Assembly: GCF_022419185.1 (NCBI RefSeq)
Contig: NZ_JAJOZK010000005.1
Location: forward strand, 1 to 64,000
Direction of reading: 5' to 3'
DNA length: 64,000 nucleotides
From: Thermomonas flagellata
GTDB lineage: Bacteria > Pseudomonadota > Gammaproteobacteria > Xanthomonadales > Xanthomonadaceae
The notes beneath the pieces are model-generated. The model saw only the letters and a program-made list of their open reading frames with translations, did not search any database and was not told the origin of the DNA. A program made the position numbers and the translations under genes. Shown one piece after another: positions 40,836 to 62,894 of the stretch (position 1 is the stretch's first letter; each line of letters starts with the position of its first letter).

Positions 40836-42134
40836 TCACCATGCCCGCAGCAGGGCCTGCAGCGCGGCCAGGTCGTTCGCCAGCGGCTCGGCCTGCGCTG
40901 GGCGCGCCAGCATCGCCGCGAGCGCGGGCGGCGGCGGCACCGGCATCTCCAGCAGCGGCTCCACCACCTCCGGGAACTTGGCCGGGTGCGCGGTCGCGAC
41001 CACCGCCCAATGCCCGCCCTCGCCGCGCGCGCGCAGGCGGTCGAGCACCTCCGCCGCGCAGGCGGTGTGCGGGCACACGACCTGGCCGCGGCGGGCGTGG
41101 GTGCGCACGATCGCGGCGCGGATGCCGGCATCGTCCACGGCCTCGGCGGTCAGCTCGCGGCGCAGCGCGGCCGGATCCGGGTACAGCGCCTGCAGCCGCT
41201 CGAAGTTGCTGGGCGCGCCCACGTCCATGGCGTTGGCGAGGGTGGCGAGGCTCGCGCGCGGGCGGTAGTCGCCGCCGGCGAAGAACTCCGGCAGCACGCT
41301 GTTGGCATTGCTGGCCAGCACGATCCGCCCCAGCGGCAGCCCGATCCGGCGCGCCAGCAGCGCGGCCAATGCGTTGCCGAGGTTGCCGGTGGGCACCACC
41401 AGGTGCAGCGGGGCGGCATGCGCGCGCCAGTGGACCAGCGCGGCGTGCGCGTAGTAGGCCATCTGCGGCAGCAGGCGGCCGAGGCTGATGCTGTTGGCCG
41501 AGCCCAGCGGCACTTCGGCGCGCAGGCCGGCATCGGCCAGCACCGCCTTGGCCAGCCGCTGGCAGTCGTCGAAGCTGCCCGCCACCCGCAGCGCGCGCAC
41601 GTTGCCGCCGAAGCTGCCGAGCTGGTGCGCCTGGCGCGGCGATACCCGGCCGTCCGGGTACAGGATCAGCACCCGCAGCCCCGGCTGCCCGTGGAAGGCG
41701 GCGCCGACCGCTGCGCCGGTGTCGCCGGAGGTCGCCACCACGATCGTCAACGGGCGTCCGGCTGGCGTGCGCGGCAGGGCCGTGAGGCAGCCGGCCAGGA
41801 AGCTCGCGCCATAGTCCTTGAACGCCGCGGTCGGGCCGTGGAACAGCTCCAGCAGGAAATCGCCGTCGGCCCCGAACGGGCACAGCGGCGCCGGCACCGC
41901 GAAGGCGCGCGCGCAGATGCCCGGCAGCGCCGGGGCCAGCGCGTCGCCGGCGAACAGCGGCGCCAGCAGGCGGGTGGCGACCGCGGGCAGGTCGGCGTCG
42001 GCGGCGAAGGCCGCCGCGTCCAGCCGCGGCCACGCCTCCGGCAGGTACAGCCCGCCGTCCGGCGCCAGCCCGGCGGCGATCGCCTCGGCCAGGCCGGCCG
42101 CCGGGGCCCGTCCGCGCGTGCTGTACACCCTCAT
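40836..42134 (-). CDS. thrC: Threonine synthase
   Basis: PLP enzyme converting O-phosphohomoserine to threonine. 432 residues of the proteobacterial long form: MRVYSTRG start, PLP Lys in [28 protein letters not shown] phosphate loop, and [18 protein letters not shown] overlaps the thrB stop (ATGA). Last gene of thrABC. A tRNA promoter lies just beyond its stop. Confidence 0.95.
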
Positions 42135-43060
42135 GCCAGTAGCCGCGCGCCGGGCGCGGCGATCGGGGTCAGGTGCACGTCGCAGGCCAGCTCGGCCGCG
42201 GCGAACGCGGCGGCCATGGCGTCCGCCGCCGCCTGCGCGCCGGCGCGGTGCTCGCACCAGGCGAACACGCTCGGCCCGGCGCCGGAGATGCTGGCGCCGA
42301 GCGCGCCGGCCGCCAGCGCAGCCTCCTGCACCGCACGGAAGCCGGCGATCAGCGGCGCCCGCCGCGGCTCCACCAGCACGTCGCGCAGGCCGGCGCGCAC
42401 CAGCTCGGGATCGCCGCGCTCGCAGCCGAGCAGCACCTGGGCGAGGTTGGCCGACTGCGCCACGAACTCGCGCAGGGCATAGCCGCCCTGCAGCACCTCG
42501 CGCGCGCGCCGGGTCTCCAGCACCGCATGCGGATGCACCACGGCGGCGTGCCACTCCGCCGGCACCCGCACCGGCGTCACCCGCGCCGCGGTCGCCAGCA
42601 CCAGCCCGCCGAGCAGCATCGGGCCGACGTTGTCGCCGTGCAGGCCGCCGCTGGCGACGACTTCGCCGGCCAGCGCGTACGGATACAGCGCCTCCACCGG
42701 CAGCGGCGCGTCCAGCAGTGCGTTGGCGGCGACCAGCGCGGCCACGCAGGAGGCGGCCGAGCCGCCCAGCCCGGAGCCGAGCGGCAGCCCCTTGTCCAGT
42801 TCCAGCTCGAACCCGAACGGCAGCCGCAGCGCGCCGCGCAGGGCGATCAGCGCCTGCCCGGCGGTGTTGCGCTCCGGCTGCAGCGGCAGGGTGGTGACGC
42901 TGCCGCGGATCGCGGCGATCCGCACTTCGGGGGCGTCGATCCGACGCACCGTGGCGACGTCGCCGATGCCGGCGATGGGATGGCCGAGGATGTCGAATCC
43001 GACCGCGACGTTGCCGACCGACCCGGGCGCGAACGCGCGCGCCTGCGCCGGCGGGCTCAC
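42131..43060 (-). CDS. thrB: Homoserine kinase
   Basis: GHMP-fold kinase phosphorylating homoserine. 309 residues: N-terminal [20 protein letters not shown] loop [20 protein letters not shown], and C-terminal [14 protein letters not shown]. The start is a GTG overlapping the thrA stop (GTGA). No ATG is available near the family N-terminus. Middle gene of thrABC. Confidence 0.95.
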
Positions 43061-45549
43061 AGGCGCGCTCCCAGCGCCGCGCACAGCCGCAGCAGGTCGG
43101 AGAACACCCCGGCGGCGGTGACCTCCGGGCCGGCACCCGGCCCCTGCACGATCAGCGGATTGGCGTGGTAGCGGCGGGTGGTGAACTGCACGCAGTTGTC
43201 GGTCAGTCGCAGATGGGCGAAGGCATGGTCGGCCGGCAGGATGCGCAGCGCAACCCCGGCGCGGCCGTCGGCGTCCAGATGCGCCACGTAGCGCAGCACG
43301 CCGCCCTGCGCGCGCGCCGTCTCCAGGCGCGCTTGCATCGGTGCATCCATCGCCTCCAGCGCGGCCATGAAGCCGTCGCGGTCGGCGCTGCGCAGGGCCT
43401 CGGGCACCAGGCTTTCGACCGTGACGTCCTCCAGCGACAGCGGCAGCCCGGCCTCGCGCGCGAGGATGACCAGCTTGCGCGCCACGTCGGTGCCGGACAG
43501 GTCGTCGCGCGGGTCCGGCTCGGTGTAGCCCAGCGCGTGCGCCTGCCGCACCAGTTCGGAGAACGGGGTGCGGCCGTCGTGGCGGTTGAACAGCCAGGCC
43601 AGGGTGCCGGAGAACAGGCCGTCCACCGCCAGCAACTGGTCGCCGGTGTCCAGCAGGTCGCGCAGGGTGGAGATCACCGGCAGCCCGGCGCCGACCGTGG
43701 CCTCGTAGCGGAAGCGCGCGCCGCTGCGCGCCTGCGCGGCGCGGATCGCGCGGTAGCGCGCCAGCGGGCCGGCCCCCGCCTGCTTGTTCGGGGTGATCAC
43801 GTGGATGCCGGCGGCCAGCCAGTCGGCGTAGTGCGCGGCGACCGCGTCGCTGGCGCTGCAGTCCACGATCACCGCGTGCGGCAGGTGGCTGTCCAGCAGG
43901 TGGCGGGCCAGCGCGGGCAGGTCGGTGGCGCGCGCCTGCGCCGGGTCCATGCGCGCACGCCAGTCGGCGCCGTCGCCGTGGGCGAAGGTCCACATCCGCC
44001 GGCTGCCGGCCAGCGCGCGCAGGCGCAGGTCCACGTTGGCCTCGCGGCGCAGGCGCGGCAGCGCCTCCTGGATCTGGTCGAGCAGGGCTGCGCCGACCTT
44101 GCCGGGGCCGATCACCGCCAGCGCGATGGTCTGCGGCGACAGCCAGAACGCGGCGTGCGCGGCGCGCAGCGCGCGCGCACCGTCGGCGGCGGCGATCGCC
44201 ACCGAGATGTTGCGCTCGGACGCACCCTGCGCGATCGCGCGGATGTTGACCCGCGCCCGCGCCAGCGCGCCGAACAGCTGCGCCGCCACCCCGGGGGTGC
44301 CGGCCATGCCGTCGCCGACCGCGGCCAGCACGCTGATCCCGGCCAGCGCCTCCACGCCCTGCACCTGGCCGCAGGCCAGCTCGCGCGCGAACGCCTCGCG
44401 CAGGGCCGCCTGCGCGGCCTGCGCATCGGGTGCGCGCACCACCGCGCAGATCGAGTGCTCGGAGCTGCCCTGCGAGATCATCACCACCGACACCCCGGCC
44501 CGGTGCAGCGCGGCGAACATGCGCTCGGCGGTGCCCGGCACCCCGATCAGGCCGGCGCCCTCCAGGCTCACCAGCGCCAGCTGCTCGTTGAGGGTCAGGC
44601 CCTTGACCGGGCCGCTGGCATCGCCGCGGGCGTCGATCCGGGTGCCGGGGAAGCCGGGGTTGAAGGTGTTGCGGATGAGGATCGGCAGGTCGCGCGCGAT
44701 CGCCGGGGTCATGGTCTGTGGGTGGATCACCTTGGCCCCGAAATAGGCCAGCTCGCAGGCCTCGCGATAGCTCATCGCCGCCAGCGGCACCGCCTCCGGC
44801 ACCACCCGCGGGTCGGCCGACAGCACGCCGTCGACGTCGGTCCAGATGTGCAGCTCGGCGGCCTCGAACAGGACTGCGAAGATCGCCCCGGAGTAGTCGC
44901 TGCCGTTGCGGCCGAGCACGGTCGGCAGGCCGTCCGGCCCGGCCGCCACGAACCCGGTGGCGACCACCCGCGGCTGCGAGTGCGCCTGCCGCCACGCGGC
45001 TAGGCGCGCGCGGCTGGCGTCCCAATCCACGATCGCGCCCAGCTCGCCATGGCGCACCTGCAGCACGCTGCGCGCATCCAGCCAGGCGTAGTCCGCGCCG
45101 AACGCCTGCAGGTGCGCCTGCAGCAGGCGCGAGGACAGCACTTCGCCGAGGCCGTGGATGCGCTCCAGCGCGGCACGCCCGGGTTCGCGCAGCAGGCCGA
45201 CCGCGCGCAGCAGCTCGCCCAGCTCGGCGAACTGTGCGTCCAGCCAGGCGTGCAGCGGGTGGCTCGGCCCGAGCAGGGAGTCCGCGGCGGCGCGATGGCG
45301 GGCATGCAGCGCCTCCAGCGCGGGCGCCCACTCGCCGCCGCTGCGCGCAGCATCGGCCAGCGCGATCAAGGCGTCGGTGACCCCGGCCATCGCCGAGGCG
45401 ACCACTACTTGTTGCGGTTCCGGCGCGTCCTGCAGCAGGCGGGCGACGTGGGCGATCCGCCCGGCATCGGCGAGCGAGCTGCCGCCGAACTTGTGGGCGC
45501 GGCAGGGCACGGCGGCGGGCGGAGGGGCGGGGGCATCGGCGGCGGGCAT
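43057..45549 (-). CDS. thrA: Bifunctional aspartokinase/homoserine dehydrogenase I
   Basis: First and third steps from aspartate to homoserine. 830 residues: aspartokinase (about 15-300; [37 protein letters not shown]), two ACT regulatory repeats (about 320-470) and NAD(P) homoserine dehydrogenase (about 475-830; [18 protein letters not shown]-type [42 protein letters not shown]). The chosen ATG is preceded by a CCTGGAG ribosome site. Expression is probably set by the thr attenuator immediately upstream. Confidence 0.96.
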
Positions 45550-45594
45550 CGTCGGCTCCAGGAGGGGCCTGCCTCGCGTTCGCGCCGGGTGCCG

Positions 45595-45676
45595 TGGCCC
45601 CGTCGCTGTTCGCGGTGCGGGGCCATGGCGGGGAGGGATCATCCGGGCATGGGCGACCGCACCGGGCGGCGGGTGC
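45595..45676 (-). promoter_or_regulatory. Threonine-operon attenuator (competing hairpins)
   Basis: On the minus strand three mutually exclusive pairings follow the leader-peptide Thr codons. (1:2) GCACC (45672-45676) pairs with GGTGC (45659-45663). (2:3) CGGTGCGG (45657-45664) pairs with CCGCACCG (45613-45620). (3:4) TGGCCCCG (45618-45625) pairs with CGGGGCCA (45595-45602), a perfect 8-bp stem with a 15-nt loop. 2:3 and 3:4 share 45618-45620, so forming one blocks the other. Unlike a classical terminator, the 3:4 stem has no T run after it. Confidence 0.65.
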
Positions 45677-45722
45677 CGGTACCGGTGGTAATGGTCGCGC
45701 CGTGGGCCGTGCGGATGGGCAT
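45639..45722 (-). CDS. thrL: thr operon leader peptide
   Basis: A 27-residue peptide with sequence [19 protein letters not shown] followed by PVRSPMPG. Residues 10-17 (TITTGTGT) hold five Thr and one Ile codon, and the Ile is ATT, unusual in this GC-rich DNA. It lies 90 nt upstream of thrA, in the position and composition of E. coli thrL, whose translation senses charged tRNA-Thr and tRNA-Ile. No Shine-Dalgarno precedes the ATG. Too short for ordinary gene callers. Strong by context, unproven as a translated peptide. Confidence 0.75.
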
Positions 45723-45728
45723 GCGCGG

Positions 45729-45758
45729 ACTGTGCGGGGGCGCGCGCGGCAGTGTCAA
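45729..45758 (-). promoter_or_regulatory. Promoter of the thr operon
   Basis: Minus strand: consensus TTGACA (45753-45758), 18-nt spacer, CACAGT (45729-45734). With 7 nt from -10 to +1, the start falls on the A of the thrL ATG at 45722. Confidence 0.6.
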
Positions 45759-45842
45759 CTTTGGTTGCGCGGGCAACGGCGGCGCGCGGGCGGGCTGGCG
45801 CCGGCCGTTATATCCTGTCCCGCCCATCGTCGGCGCCTGCCC

Positions 45843-46625
45843 ATGCGCTTCGTGCATTCCTTTTGGCTGCGTTCGCTGTGTCTGCTCGCCGGCCTGCTGC
45901 TGGCCGGGGCCGCCAGCGCCGGCGCGCTCACGGTGGCCGCGGCCGCCGATCTCAAGTTCGCGCTGGACGAGATCGTCGCCGCTTACCGCAAGGCGCACCC
46001 GCAGGACCGCATCCAGGTGGTGTACGGCTCCTCCGGCAAGTTCCACACCCAGATCCAGCAGGGTGCGCCCTACGATCTCTTCTTCTCGGCCGACATCGCC
46101 TACCCGCAGGCGCTGGTGCGCGACGGCCACGCGCTGGCGCCGGTGCGGCCGTACGCGTTCGGCCGGATCGTGCTGTGGAGCCGCAGCCGCGACGCCAGCC
46201 GGATGACCCTGGCCAGCCTCACCGATCCGGCGATCCGGCGGATCGCGATCGCCAATCCCAAGCACGCGCCCTACGGCAAGCGCGCGGAGGAGGCGCTGCG
46301 CGCCGCCGGGCTGTGGGAGCGAGTGCAGCCGAAGCTGGTATTCGGCGAGAACGTCGCGCAGACCGCGCAGTTCGTGCAGACCGGCAATGCCGACGTCGGC
46401 ATCATCGCGCTGTCGCTGGCGCTCAGCCCGGTGCTGGCGCGCGAGGGCGGGCACTGGACCATCCCGGACCGTCTGCACGCGCCGCTCGAGCAGGGCTATG
46501 TGATCACCCGGCGCGCGGCGGACAATCCGACGGCGCGCCAGTTCGCCGCCTACATGGCCAGCCCGGCCGCGCGCGCGGTGATGGCGCGCTACGGCTTCGT
46601 ACTGCCGGGCGAACCGGTGCGCTGA
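45843..46625 (+). CDS. modA: Molybdate ABC transporter, periplasmic binding protein
   Basis: 260 residues with a Sec signal peptide ([16 protein letters not shown]) and the ModA fold: [38 protein letters not shown] with the oxyanion-binding Ser/Ser-Gly, [17 protein letters not shown] and [11 protein letters not shown]. Captures molybdate (or tungstate) in the periplasm for ModBC. CGTTATAT at 45806-45813 resembles half of a ModE box but is equally a -10. No modE is in the window. Confidence 0.93.
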
Positions 46626-61656: not shown

Positions 61657-61983
61657 GTGAAGACCCGCACCCACCTCCCGCCCGGACCCGACGCCGACGC
61701 CGGCCTGCGCGCGCTGGCGCAGGTGCTGGCCGCGCTGCGCGATCCGGCTGCGGTCGCGGCCTTCCTGCAGGACCTGTGCACGCCGGCCGAACTGGAGGCG
61801 CTCGCCGACCGCTGGAAGGTGGTGCCGCTGCTGCGCGCCGGCACGCCCTACCGCGCGATCCACGACCGCACCGGCGTCAGCGTGACGACCATCGGCCGGG
61901 TCGCGCGCACCCTCGAACGCGGCGCCGGCGGCTATGCCGCGGCGCTGGCCACCCTGCCTGCCTCCGACCGAGGTTCCCGATGA
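61657..61983 (+). CDS. hisR: TrpR/YerC-family repressor of histidine biosynthesis
   Basis: A 108-residue all-helical Trp-repressor-like protein: [40 protein letters not shown], then the recognition helix region [18 protein letters not shown]. TrpR-family regulators directly in front of hisG are predicted to control his genes (HisR) in Xanthomonadales. GTG at 61657 is preferred. An in-frame TTG at 61639 lies inside the operator. The stop overlaps hisG (ATGA), so it is co-transcribed and autoregulated. Confidence 0.75.
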
Positions 61984-62894
61984 GCCCCCCTCCCGCTCCC
62001 GGCGTGCGCGAACGCCTGCGCATCGCCATCCAGAAGAACGGCCGCCTCAGCGAACCGGCGCGCGCGCTGCTCGGCAGCTGCGGCCTGTCCTGGCGCGAAA
62101 GCCCGGACAAGCTGTTCTGCTACGGCGACAACGCCCCGGTCGATCTCTTGCTGGTGCGCGACGACGACATCCCCGGGCTGATCGACAGCGGCCTGTGCGA
62201 CCTCGGCATCGTCGGCCGCAACGTGCTGCAGGAACAGGCCAGCGAGCGCCGCCGCGCCGGGCGCGGCGCGAACGTGCGCGAGTGGCGCGCGCTCGGCTTC
62301 GGCGGCTGCCGACTGGCGCTGGCGGTGCCGCAGGACTGGGCCTGGCAGGGGCCGGCGCAGCTGCAGGGACGCCGGATCGCCACCTCGTACCCGGCACTCA
62401 CCCGCGACTGGCTGGACGCCCAGGGCGTGCAGGCGGAGGTGGTGGTGCTGTCGGGCTCGGTCGAGATCGCCCCGCGCCTGGGCCAGGCCGACGTGGTCTG
62501 CGACCTGGTCTCCAGCGGCGCGACCCTGGCCGCCAACCAGCTCACCCCGGTGTGCGACCTGCTGCAGAGCGAGGCGGTGCTGGCCGGGCCGGAGGCGGAG
62601 CTCGACCCGACCCTGGCCGAGACCGCGCAGATGCTGCTGCGCCGGATCGACGGCGTGCTGCGCATCCGCGACAGCAAGCTGCTGATGTTCCAGGCCCCGC
62701 GCGCGGCGCTGGCGGACGTGCTGCGGCTGCTGCCGGACGCCGAACCGCCGACCGCCTATCCGGTCGAGGGCCAGGACCTGCTGGCGATGCAGGCCCTCTG
62801 CCATGGGGTGGTGACCTGGCAGCGGCTGGAGGAACTCAAGCGTGCCGGTGCGCGCAGCCTGATGGTGCTGCCGGTGGAGAGGATGCTGGCATGA
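61980..62894 (+). CDS. hisG: ATP phosphoribosyltransferase, long form
   Basis: First histidine step, condensing ATP and PRPP. 304 residues: [46 protein letters not shown], and the PRPP loop region [19 protein letters not shown]-terminal regulatory domain (about 225-304) typical of the hexameric, histidine-inhibited HisG-L form is present, so no HisZ is needed. ATG overlaps the hisR stop and the TGA overlaps the hisD ATG. Confidence 0.95.

Follow-up and report, generated by a model that had tools for sequence, protein, structure and literature searches.

In Escherichia coli the thrL leader encodes a peptide rich in threonine and isoleucine ahead of thrABC, and its transcript can adopt rival 2:3 and 3:4 pairings. 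Attenuation in the proteobacteria was reportedly surveyed by Vitreschak and others in 2004, and that survey may already list a thr leader of Xanthomonas. This survey apart, the portions of the literature that were accessible yielded no report of threonine attenuation in connection with Xanthomonas, Xylella or Thr_leader, none of leaderless leader peptides in connection with Xanthomonas, and none of hybrid transcription/translation attenuation for threonine.

According to the accessible part of its description, the rnTrpL RNA of Sinorhizobium meliloti starts with the ATG of trpL and is thus a leaderless attenuator leader (PMC7298713). The Cys leader peptides of Mycobacterium are presented, in the sections available, as having no obvious terminators, and Rho was suggested (PMC1262725). 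In the available text of one survey of attenuation, Xanthomonas is named a single time, for rpsL (PMC2965389).

The window analysed here is a stretch of 64,000 nucleotides from Thermomonas flagellata (contig NZ_JAJOZK010000005.1, positions 1 to 64,000). Its minus strand carries thrA (43057..45549), coding for a bifunctional aspartokinase/homoserine dehydrogenase I of 830 amino acids (NF006959, 973.7 bits, cut-off 726), thrB for homoserine kinase (42131..43060, GTG start) and thrC for threonine synthase (40836..42134); thrB overlaps thrA, and thrC overlaps thrB, by 4 nt, and both match NCBIfam models above cut-off. The divergent modA (45843-46625, plus strand) lies upstream of the thr leader. 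A threonine-rich frame of 27 codons ahead of thrA-thrB-thrC, pointed out in an earlier note on this DNA, was borne out at 45722-45639 of the minus strand (45639..45722 with its TGA), and from the promoter geometry the transcript probably begins at its start codon. The whole is best read, with a probability of roughly 0.72, as a ribosome-mediated, threonine-sensing attenuator of thrABC, and the like reading in the earlier note gains support from the retention of the Thr codons and of the alternative pairings among relatives.

The putative sensor is a run of Thr and Ile codons, ACC ATT ACC ACC GGT ACC GGC ACC (45672..45695), which lies within strand 1. It is followed on the same strand by strand 2, CGGTGCGG (45657..45664), read from the sequence; by strand 3, of which TGGCCCCG (45618..45625) is the partner of strand 4, by sequence and folding, and CCGCACCG (45613..45620) that of strand 2, by sequence and the strand-swap test; and by strand 4, CGGGGCCA (45595..45602), likewise recognized by sequence and folding. 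The 2:3 and 3:4 stems, proposed earlier as two stems of 8 bp sharing 3 nt, agree with these coordinates exactly, the common nucleotides being 45620-45618. In most relatives the overlap is 5 nt (CCGCA; alignment A3, columns 53-57) as against 3 in the window. Directly 3' of the 3:4 stem the window reads CGGCACCCGG, which holds no T run. On folding, the 3:4 region (45 nt) of the window gave -28.2 kcal/mol (z -5.2), a value equalled by none of 200 shuffles, and the whole leader gave z -3.0, equalled by one of 200.

The course of events that we infer, from the transcription start through the stalling logic to the regulatory sign, would be the following. Transcription would begin at the A of the leader ATG, so that a ribosome would bind the 5' end directly and read the Thr-rich peptide. 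With threonyl-tRNA in short supply, it would stall on the Thr codons, 2:3 would pair and the operon would be on; with ample threonine, it would reach the stop codon and cover strand 2, 3:4 would pair and expression would be lowered.

In 48 leaders threonine accounts for 23% of the codons, compared with 4.5% in thrA, and the number of Thr codons is 4-12 in every one of 118 leaders. The leader is thus a short ORF rich in the codons of the regulated amino acid, as befits an attenuator. Isoleucine is encoded by ATT in 74 of 107 leader codons versus 163 of 1579 in thrA, a strong preference for a rare codon. The end of the peptide, which reads PVRSVMPG in Thermomonas and PVR.VVFA in Xanthomonas, is conserved, and this stretch coincides with strand 2. 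The 27-residue peptide itself matched no NCBIfam or Pfam family at E<=10.

The sampling of relatives was carried out in two rounds. The first set comprised 110 loci around thrA, 30 among the matches listed and 80 from a second search; 13 of these were duplicates and in five, from other families of the order (L024, L025, L026, L028 and L029), the leader was absent by eye, which left 92 distinct upstream regions with the element. At 90% identity these reduce to 54, from which 51 entered the swap test, 47 the state folds, 48 the opening energies and 49 alignment A3; the strand-2 anchor is misplaced in rows L089 and L095. In the second round a covariance model, R1, whose training set contains the window's own row, gave a single match in each of 66 genomes, out of 250 searched in the order, and the matches were confined to the family of the window and one further family. 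Of these 66, 40 were read and seven more were already in the first set. Every one of the 40 showed a leader ORF with TTGAC 35-39 nt upstream of its ATG, and ThrA homology downstream (tblastn). The upstream region of a genome of the same genus (G006) is that of Thermomonas hydrothermalis.

Thermomonas is placed in Lysobacteraceae, the family to which the Xanthomonas leaders also belong. The second family is Rhodanobacteraceae, since the leader of genome G087 is that of Rudaea cellulosilytica (L060) and Rudaea is a member. In 15 of the 40 loci read, all from Rhodanobacteraceae, homology runs from ThrA residue 473 on, that is, over the homoserine dehydrogenase half; in this family 15 of 19 loci read carry the leader ahead of a homoserine dehydrogenase region and not of a bifunctional thrA, and the six of the 15 that were translated have it before a separate homoserine dehydrogenase gene. 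A thr attenuator would therefore be common to Lysobacteraceae and Rhodanobacteraceae, situated upstream of either thrA or a stand-alone homoserine dehydrogenase gene. Sequence comparison establishes the anatomy of the leader, its conservation, the placement of the promoter, the missing U-tract and the closed thrA Shine-Dalgarno (SD) sequence. Since DNA rich in G+C readily yields open frames and stems, both of which are cheap at such composition, the arrangement might be ascribed to chance; this has a negligible probability in view of the conservation, the fixed spacing, the strand-swap test and the location before the same genes, and the architecture, kept in two families, is judged to be beyond chance.

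The promoter would place the start of the RNA at the start of the peptide. In the window the -35 hexamer TTGACA (45753..45758, minus strand) lies 36 nt 5' of the leader ATG, a spacing matched in relatives, and a spacer of 18 nt separates it from a putative -10 hexamer, CACAGT (45729..45734), 6 nt 5' of the ATG. The latter agrees poorly with TATAAT; most Thermomonas rows read CANAGT or CACATT, and across the members the -10 words are variable, also with poor agreement. TTGACA was found 35-38 nt 5' of an in-frame leader ATG in 85 of the 92 regions, at exactly 36 nt in 54 of them, the search finding no match in the other seven (L030, L067, L083, L089, L091, L095 and L109). The 40 loci of the second round all have TTGAC 35-39 nt before the ATG (TTGACA in 31), which brings the combined count to 125 of 132 regions, or 118 distinct ones; in letter-shuffled upstream regions this spacing, in any frame, occurred in 0.57%. 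Of the 118 distinct members in which the promoter search gave a match, 112 have C at -1; before the leader ATG, none of the 118 has a strong SD and six have a weak SD-like word. A -35 word at -36 together with an 18-nt spacer would put the transcription start on the A of the leader ATG. By this geometry the leader ORF is probably leaderless, combining as it does a promoter that points to the A of its start codon with the lack of a strong SD.

The competing pairings were examined by exchanging strands between species, the native pairing energy being compared with that obtained after one strand is replaced (51 sequences); since kinship alone may raise such scores, other strand pairs served as control. 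The z values were -6.4 for 1:2, -4.3 for 2:3 and -4.6 for 3:4. For three further pairings they were -7.5 (X:Y, the 3:4 loop with a downstream CCTGAT), -3.8 (5:SD) and -3.8 (3:5). Eight of nine control pairs stayed at |z| <=1.6, the ninth, strand 4 with Y, reaching -2.6. The 2:3 and 3:4 helices are mutually exclusive, through the shared 3 nt, and both conserved. Only 24 of 51 sequences had a native 2:3 pair better than the median swap; in alignment A3 (49 sequences) this helix is 96% paired and almost invariant, which explains its weak covariation. Leaders before the separate homoserine dehydrogenase gene mostly have GGGTGGG and CCCGCCC as strands 2 and 3, and exchange of 2:3 between the families (own pairs -17.6 kcal/mol on average, exchanged pairs -13.1 and -16.1) gave weak to modest support.

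In the same alignment X:Y is 66% paired with both-sided changes at five of six pairs, and the thrA SD hairpin is paired in 86% of cells with both-sided changes at three of six pairs. A structure with X:Y and the SD hairpin held 18 cells with both-sided changes against 10.7 in shuffles (two of 500 as high), although the number of pairs with such a change was unremarkable (109 of 500) and the covariation score was the same after a shift of one column. When 3:4 was taken together with the SD hairpin, no covariation measure stood clearly above the shuffles (as high in 45-213 of 500). Run on the complete alignment, RNAalifold returned five 2:3 pairs only; such sparse output follows from alternatives that exclude one another, and strand swaps and named structures were used instead. 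Covariation thus appears to favour X:Y above all and to lend the classical stems modest support, so that, of the compensatory change sought in all three stems, the alternative pairings are kept while covariation is only modest. In the window itself neither X:Y nor 3:5 pairing is predicted, and these belong to the relatives and not to this member. The X:Y helix, the 5-nt overlap in most relatives, the promoter placement and the thrA SD hairpin all go beyond the earlier note.

When a ribosome was modelled on the Thr codons (47 sequences), 2:3 had on average 4.75 pairs versus 0.08 once the ribosome was moved to the stop codon, and 3:4 rose from 3.45 to 5.04 pairs between the two states. In the window, the minimum-energy fold with the stalled ribosome retains 3:4, yet the ensemble favours 2:3 (5.5 pairs against 2.6). 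In relative L006, 3:4 is predicted barely to form even when the stop codon is occupied by the ribosome.

The lack of a T run after 3:4, which had been singled out as odd, is real and extends throughout the clade: in none of the 118 thr members is the trimmed best hairpin followed by a T run longer than 3 (range 0-3, with 3 in eight), the best hairpin by scan differing from 3:4 in some rows, e.g. L023. An intrinsic terminator proper, with a U-tract after the 3:4 hairpin, is consequently unlikely here. A single 5S rRNA gene was found in the genome, and a G+C-rich stem and TCCTTTTT come after it.

The ilvC operon of the same genome (contig C7, about 381500, outside the window) has its own branched-chain leader peptide, MLHRHTPAPTALTATAAALVLVLITSPTGAGRSGV, and rival strands. 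A pattern built from six such loci matched 28 of 119 genomes of the family, and in all 28 TTGACA lies 36-38 nt 5' of the ATG, by which the ilvC leader is probably leaderless too. The run of T after its hairpin is at least 3 in 27 of 28 and 5-6 in 18 of 28, the genome of the window having only TTTCC; in all nine genomes that could be compared, of 22 thr loci chosen for pairing, the ilv run was the longer one. The ilvC attenuator is like that of thr in its GGTGCGGG and CCCCGCACC strands, which are similar, and in the same TTGACA-ATG placement; it differs by the T run and by an ilvC SD that is cheap to open. With T runs at both 5S and ilvC, the absence of a U-tract is specific to thr. For this reason it is quite improbable that the G+C-rich 3:4 hairpin terminates alone, even though it is strong (the -28.2 kcal/mol given above) and is followed in some Xanthomonas thr rows by a short CTTTCC; T runs occur at the 5S operon of this genome and at ilvC in the family, and not one of the 118 thr members has such a tract.

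The SD of thrA, GGAG (45559-45556), is enclosed in a hairpin of GGCCCC and GGAGCC with five of six pairs and the loop TCCT (45554..45569, minus strand), which occurs clade-wide. To open it costs a median of 6.4 kcal/mol (52 regions) compared with 4.0 for 127 other ORFs (p 1e-9), a p-value that is too small because the samples are not independent, the control ORFs being mechanical, with guessed starts and with relatives of one another among them. At ilvC the cost was 2.5-3.9 kcal/mol in the six loci measured. The thr leader has a closed SD and no U-tract and the ilv leader the reverse, which suggests control at the translation of thrA.

A different start for thrA was also considered, at the in-frame ATG at 45642, which overlaps the leader stop (ATGA) and would make the region coding or coupled in translation. 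The frame from 45642 into thrA is open in the window; since in 50 of the 92 regions it is closed between the leader stop codon and the start of thrA, and the SD and ATG near 45549 agree with those of the relatives, this candidate was rejected as very improbable.

It is conceivable, although rather doubtful, that the thr leader is a translational attenuator, in which transcription would run to full length and the ribosome on the leader would set the thrA SD through 2:3, 3:4, 3:5 and 5:SD. The conserved shape of the SD hairpin (86% paired, both-sided changes at three of six pairs, swap z -3.8), its costly opening and the lack of a U-tract speak for it, as does the finding that the SAM-I riboswitch of Xanthomonas campestris is mainly translational, as stated in the accessible part of PMC7270179. 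The modelled access runs the other way: relative to the state with the stop codon occupied, the thrA SD is predicted to be harder to open with a stalled ribosome in 26 of 48 sequences and easier in five, and its mean openness when stalled is 0.13 as opposed to 0.19. This direction, wrong for feedback, arises because strand 2 is covered at the stop codon and strand 3 can draw strand 5 off the SD. The pairings 3:5 and X:Y, moreover, are missing from the window. The SD thus lies within a conserved hairpin and does not become more open when the leader ribosome stalls; the latter is an equilibrium prediction and not kinetics, and as such folding takes no account of the order in which the RNA is made, the translational reading is made less probable only to a degree. 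Of the earlier suggestion that the switch acts on thrA translation, the SD hairpin is there to support it, while the modelled change of access goes in the wrong direction.

For the output of the attenuator, premature termination with a helper factor, either Rho or NusA/NusG at a hairpin without U, is slightly favoured. The thrA SD hairpin would keep ribosomes off the C-rich RNA that follows the leader. The stretch from the leader stop to thrA holds 39% C and 30% G, with C above G in 47 of 48, compared with 34% C and 36% G on average in the thrA body, i.e. with G above C. A C-rich, putatively ribosome-free stretch next to a closed thrA site favours helper-assisted termination, although the leader ORF and the thrA start are also C-rich and C-richness alone is no proof of Rho. 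Control at thrA translation is less probable, and an output other than these two is improbable. It is tempting to speculate, and this is meant tentatively, that the two families use attenuation of a mixed kind, acting on both transcription and translation, in which a leaderless, codon-sensing leader is combined with a thrA SD hairpin and no U-tract; many relatives, though not the window, would then choose among three ways, 2:3, 3:4 or 3X:Y5.

The Rfam family Thr_leader (RF00506), a search against which had been proposed as a check, does not include the thr leader, be it in the window, in 11 relative loci or in 101 genomes. No match was obtained at E<=10 in 45000-46300 and none at the gathering threshold in the 11 loci; none of the 101 genomes of the order rose above the cut-off, and the E. 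coli control was positive. Weaker matches occurred in 35 of the 101 genomes, and none fell at an R1 match in the 11 genomes common to both searches.

Other biosynthetic genes gave separate observations. Upstream of trpE in three loci (L202, L205 and L206) there are short ORFs with Trp codons (WRWW) that extend past the trpE start, an arrangement suggestive of a tryptophan leader with coupling to the translation of trpE. No His leader was seen upstream of hisG (62016). A short gene at about 61700-62000, present just before hisG also in relatives, encodes what we take to resemble a Trp-repressor-type protein.

These data predict a threonine attenuator for two families, Xanthomonas included, where Rfam and NCBIfam find none. 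The thr and ilv peptides apparently start at +1, and if this is true, leaderless initiation would be part of amino-acid sensing in these bacteria. Moreover, thr and ilv in one genome represent a natural experiment, with a similar design and the U-tract absent in one and present in the other.

Compared with thrL of E. coli, the Thermomonas leader likewise has a Thr/Ile-rich peptide ahead of thrABC and competing 2:3 and 3:4 pairings; it differs in that it is unmatched by Rfam and NCBIfam, has no U-tract, is probably leaderless and holds the thrA SD in a hairpin. It is therefore probably a thr attenuator of known type, in which the U-tract is absent and the peptide ORF is probably leaderless.

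The SAM-I riboswitch of X. campestris, as far as its description was available, is like the thr leader in belonging to the same family and to an amino-acid operon, in having no Rho-independent terminator and in SD pairing; it is unlike it in sensing SAM and uncharged initiator tRNA, and no leader-peptide sensing is noted in the text at hand (PMC7270179). With rnTrpL of S. meliloti, in the portion of the report accessible, the thr leader shares an attenuator RNA that opens on the ATG of the leader ORF; rnTrpL concerns tryptophan in an alphaproteobacterium and its start was mapped experimentally, whereas the thr start is deduced (PMC7298713). The Cys leaders of Mycobacterium, to judge from the available part of their description, are similar in having an amino-acid leader peptide and no plain terminator; they show no conserved hairpins capable of termination, whereas the thr leader keeps its rival hairpins (PMC1262725).
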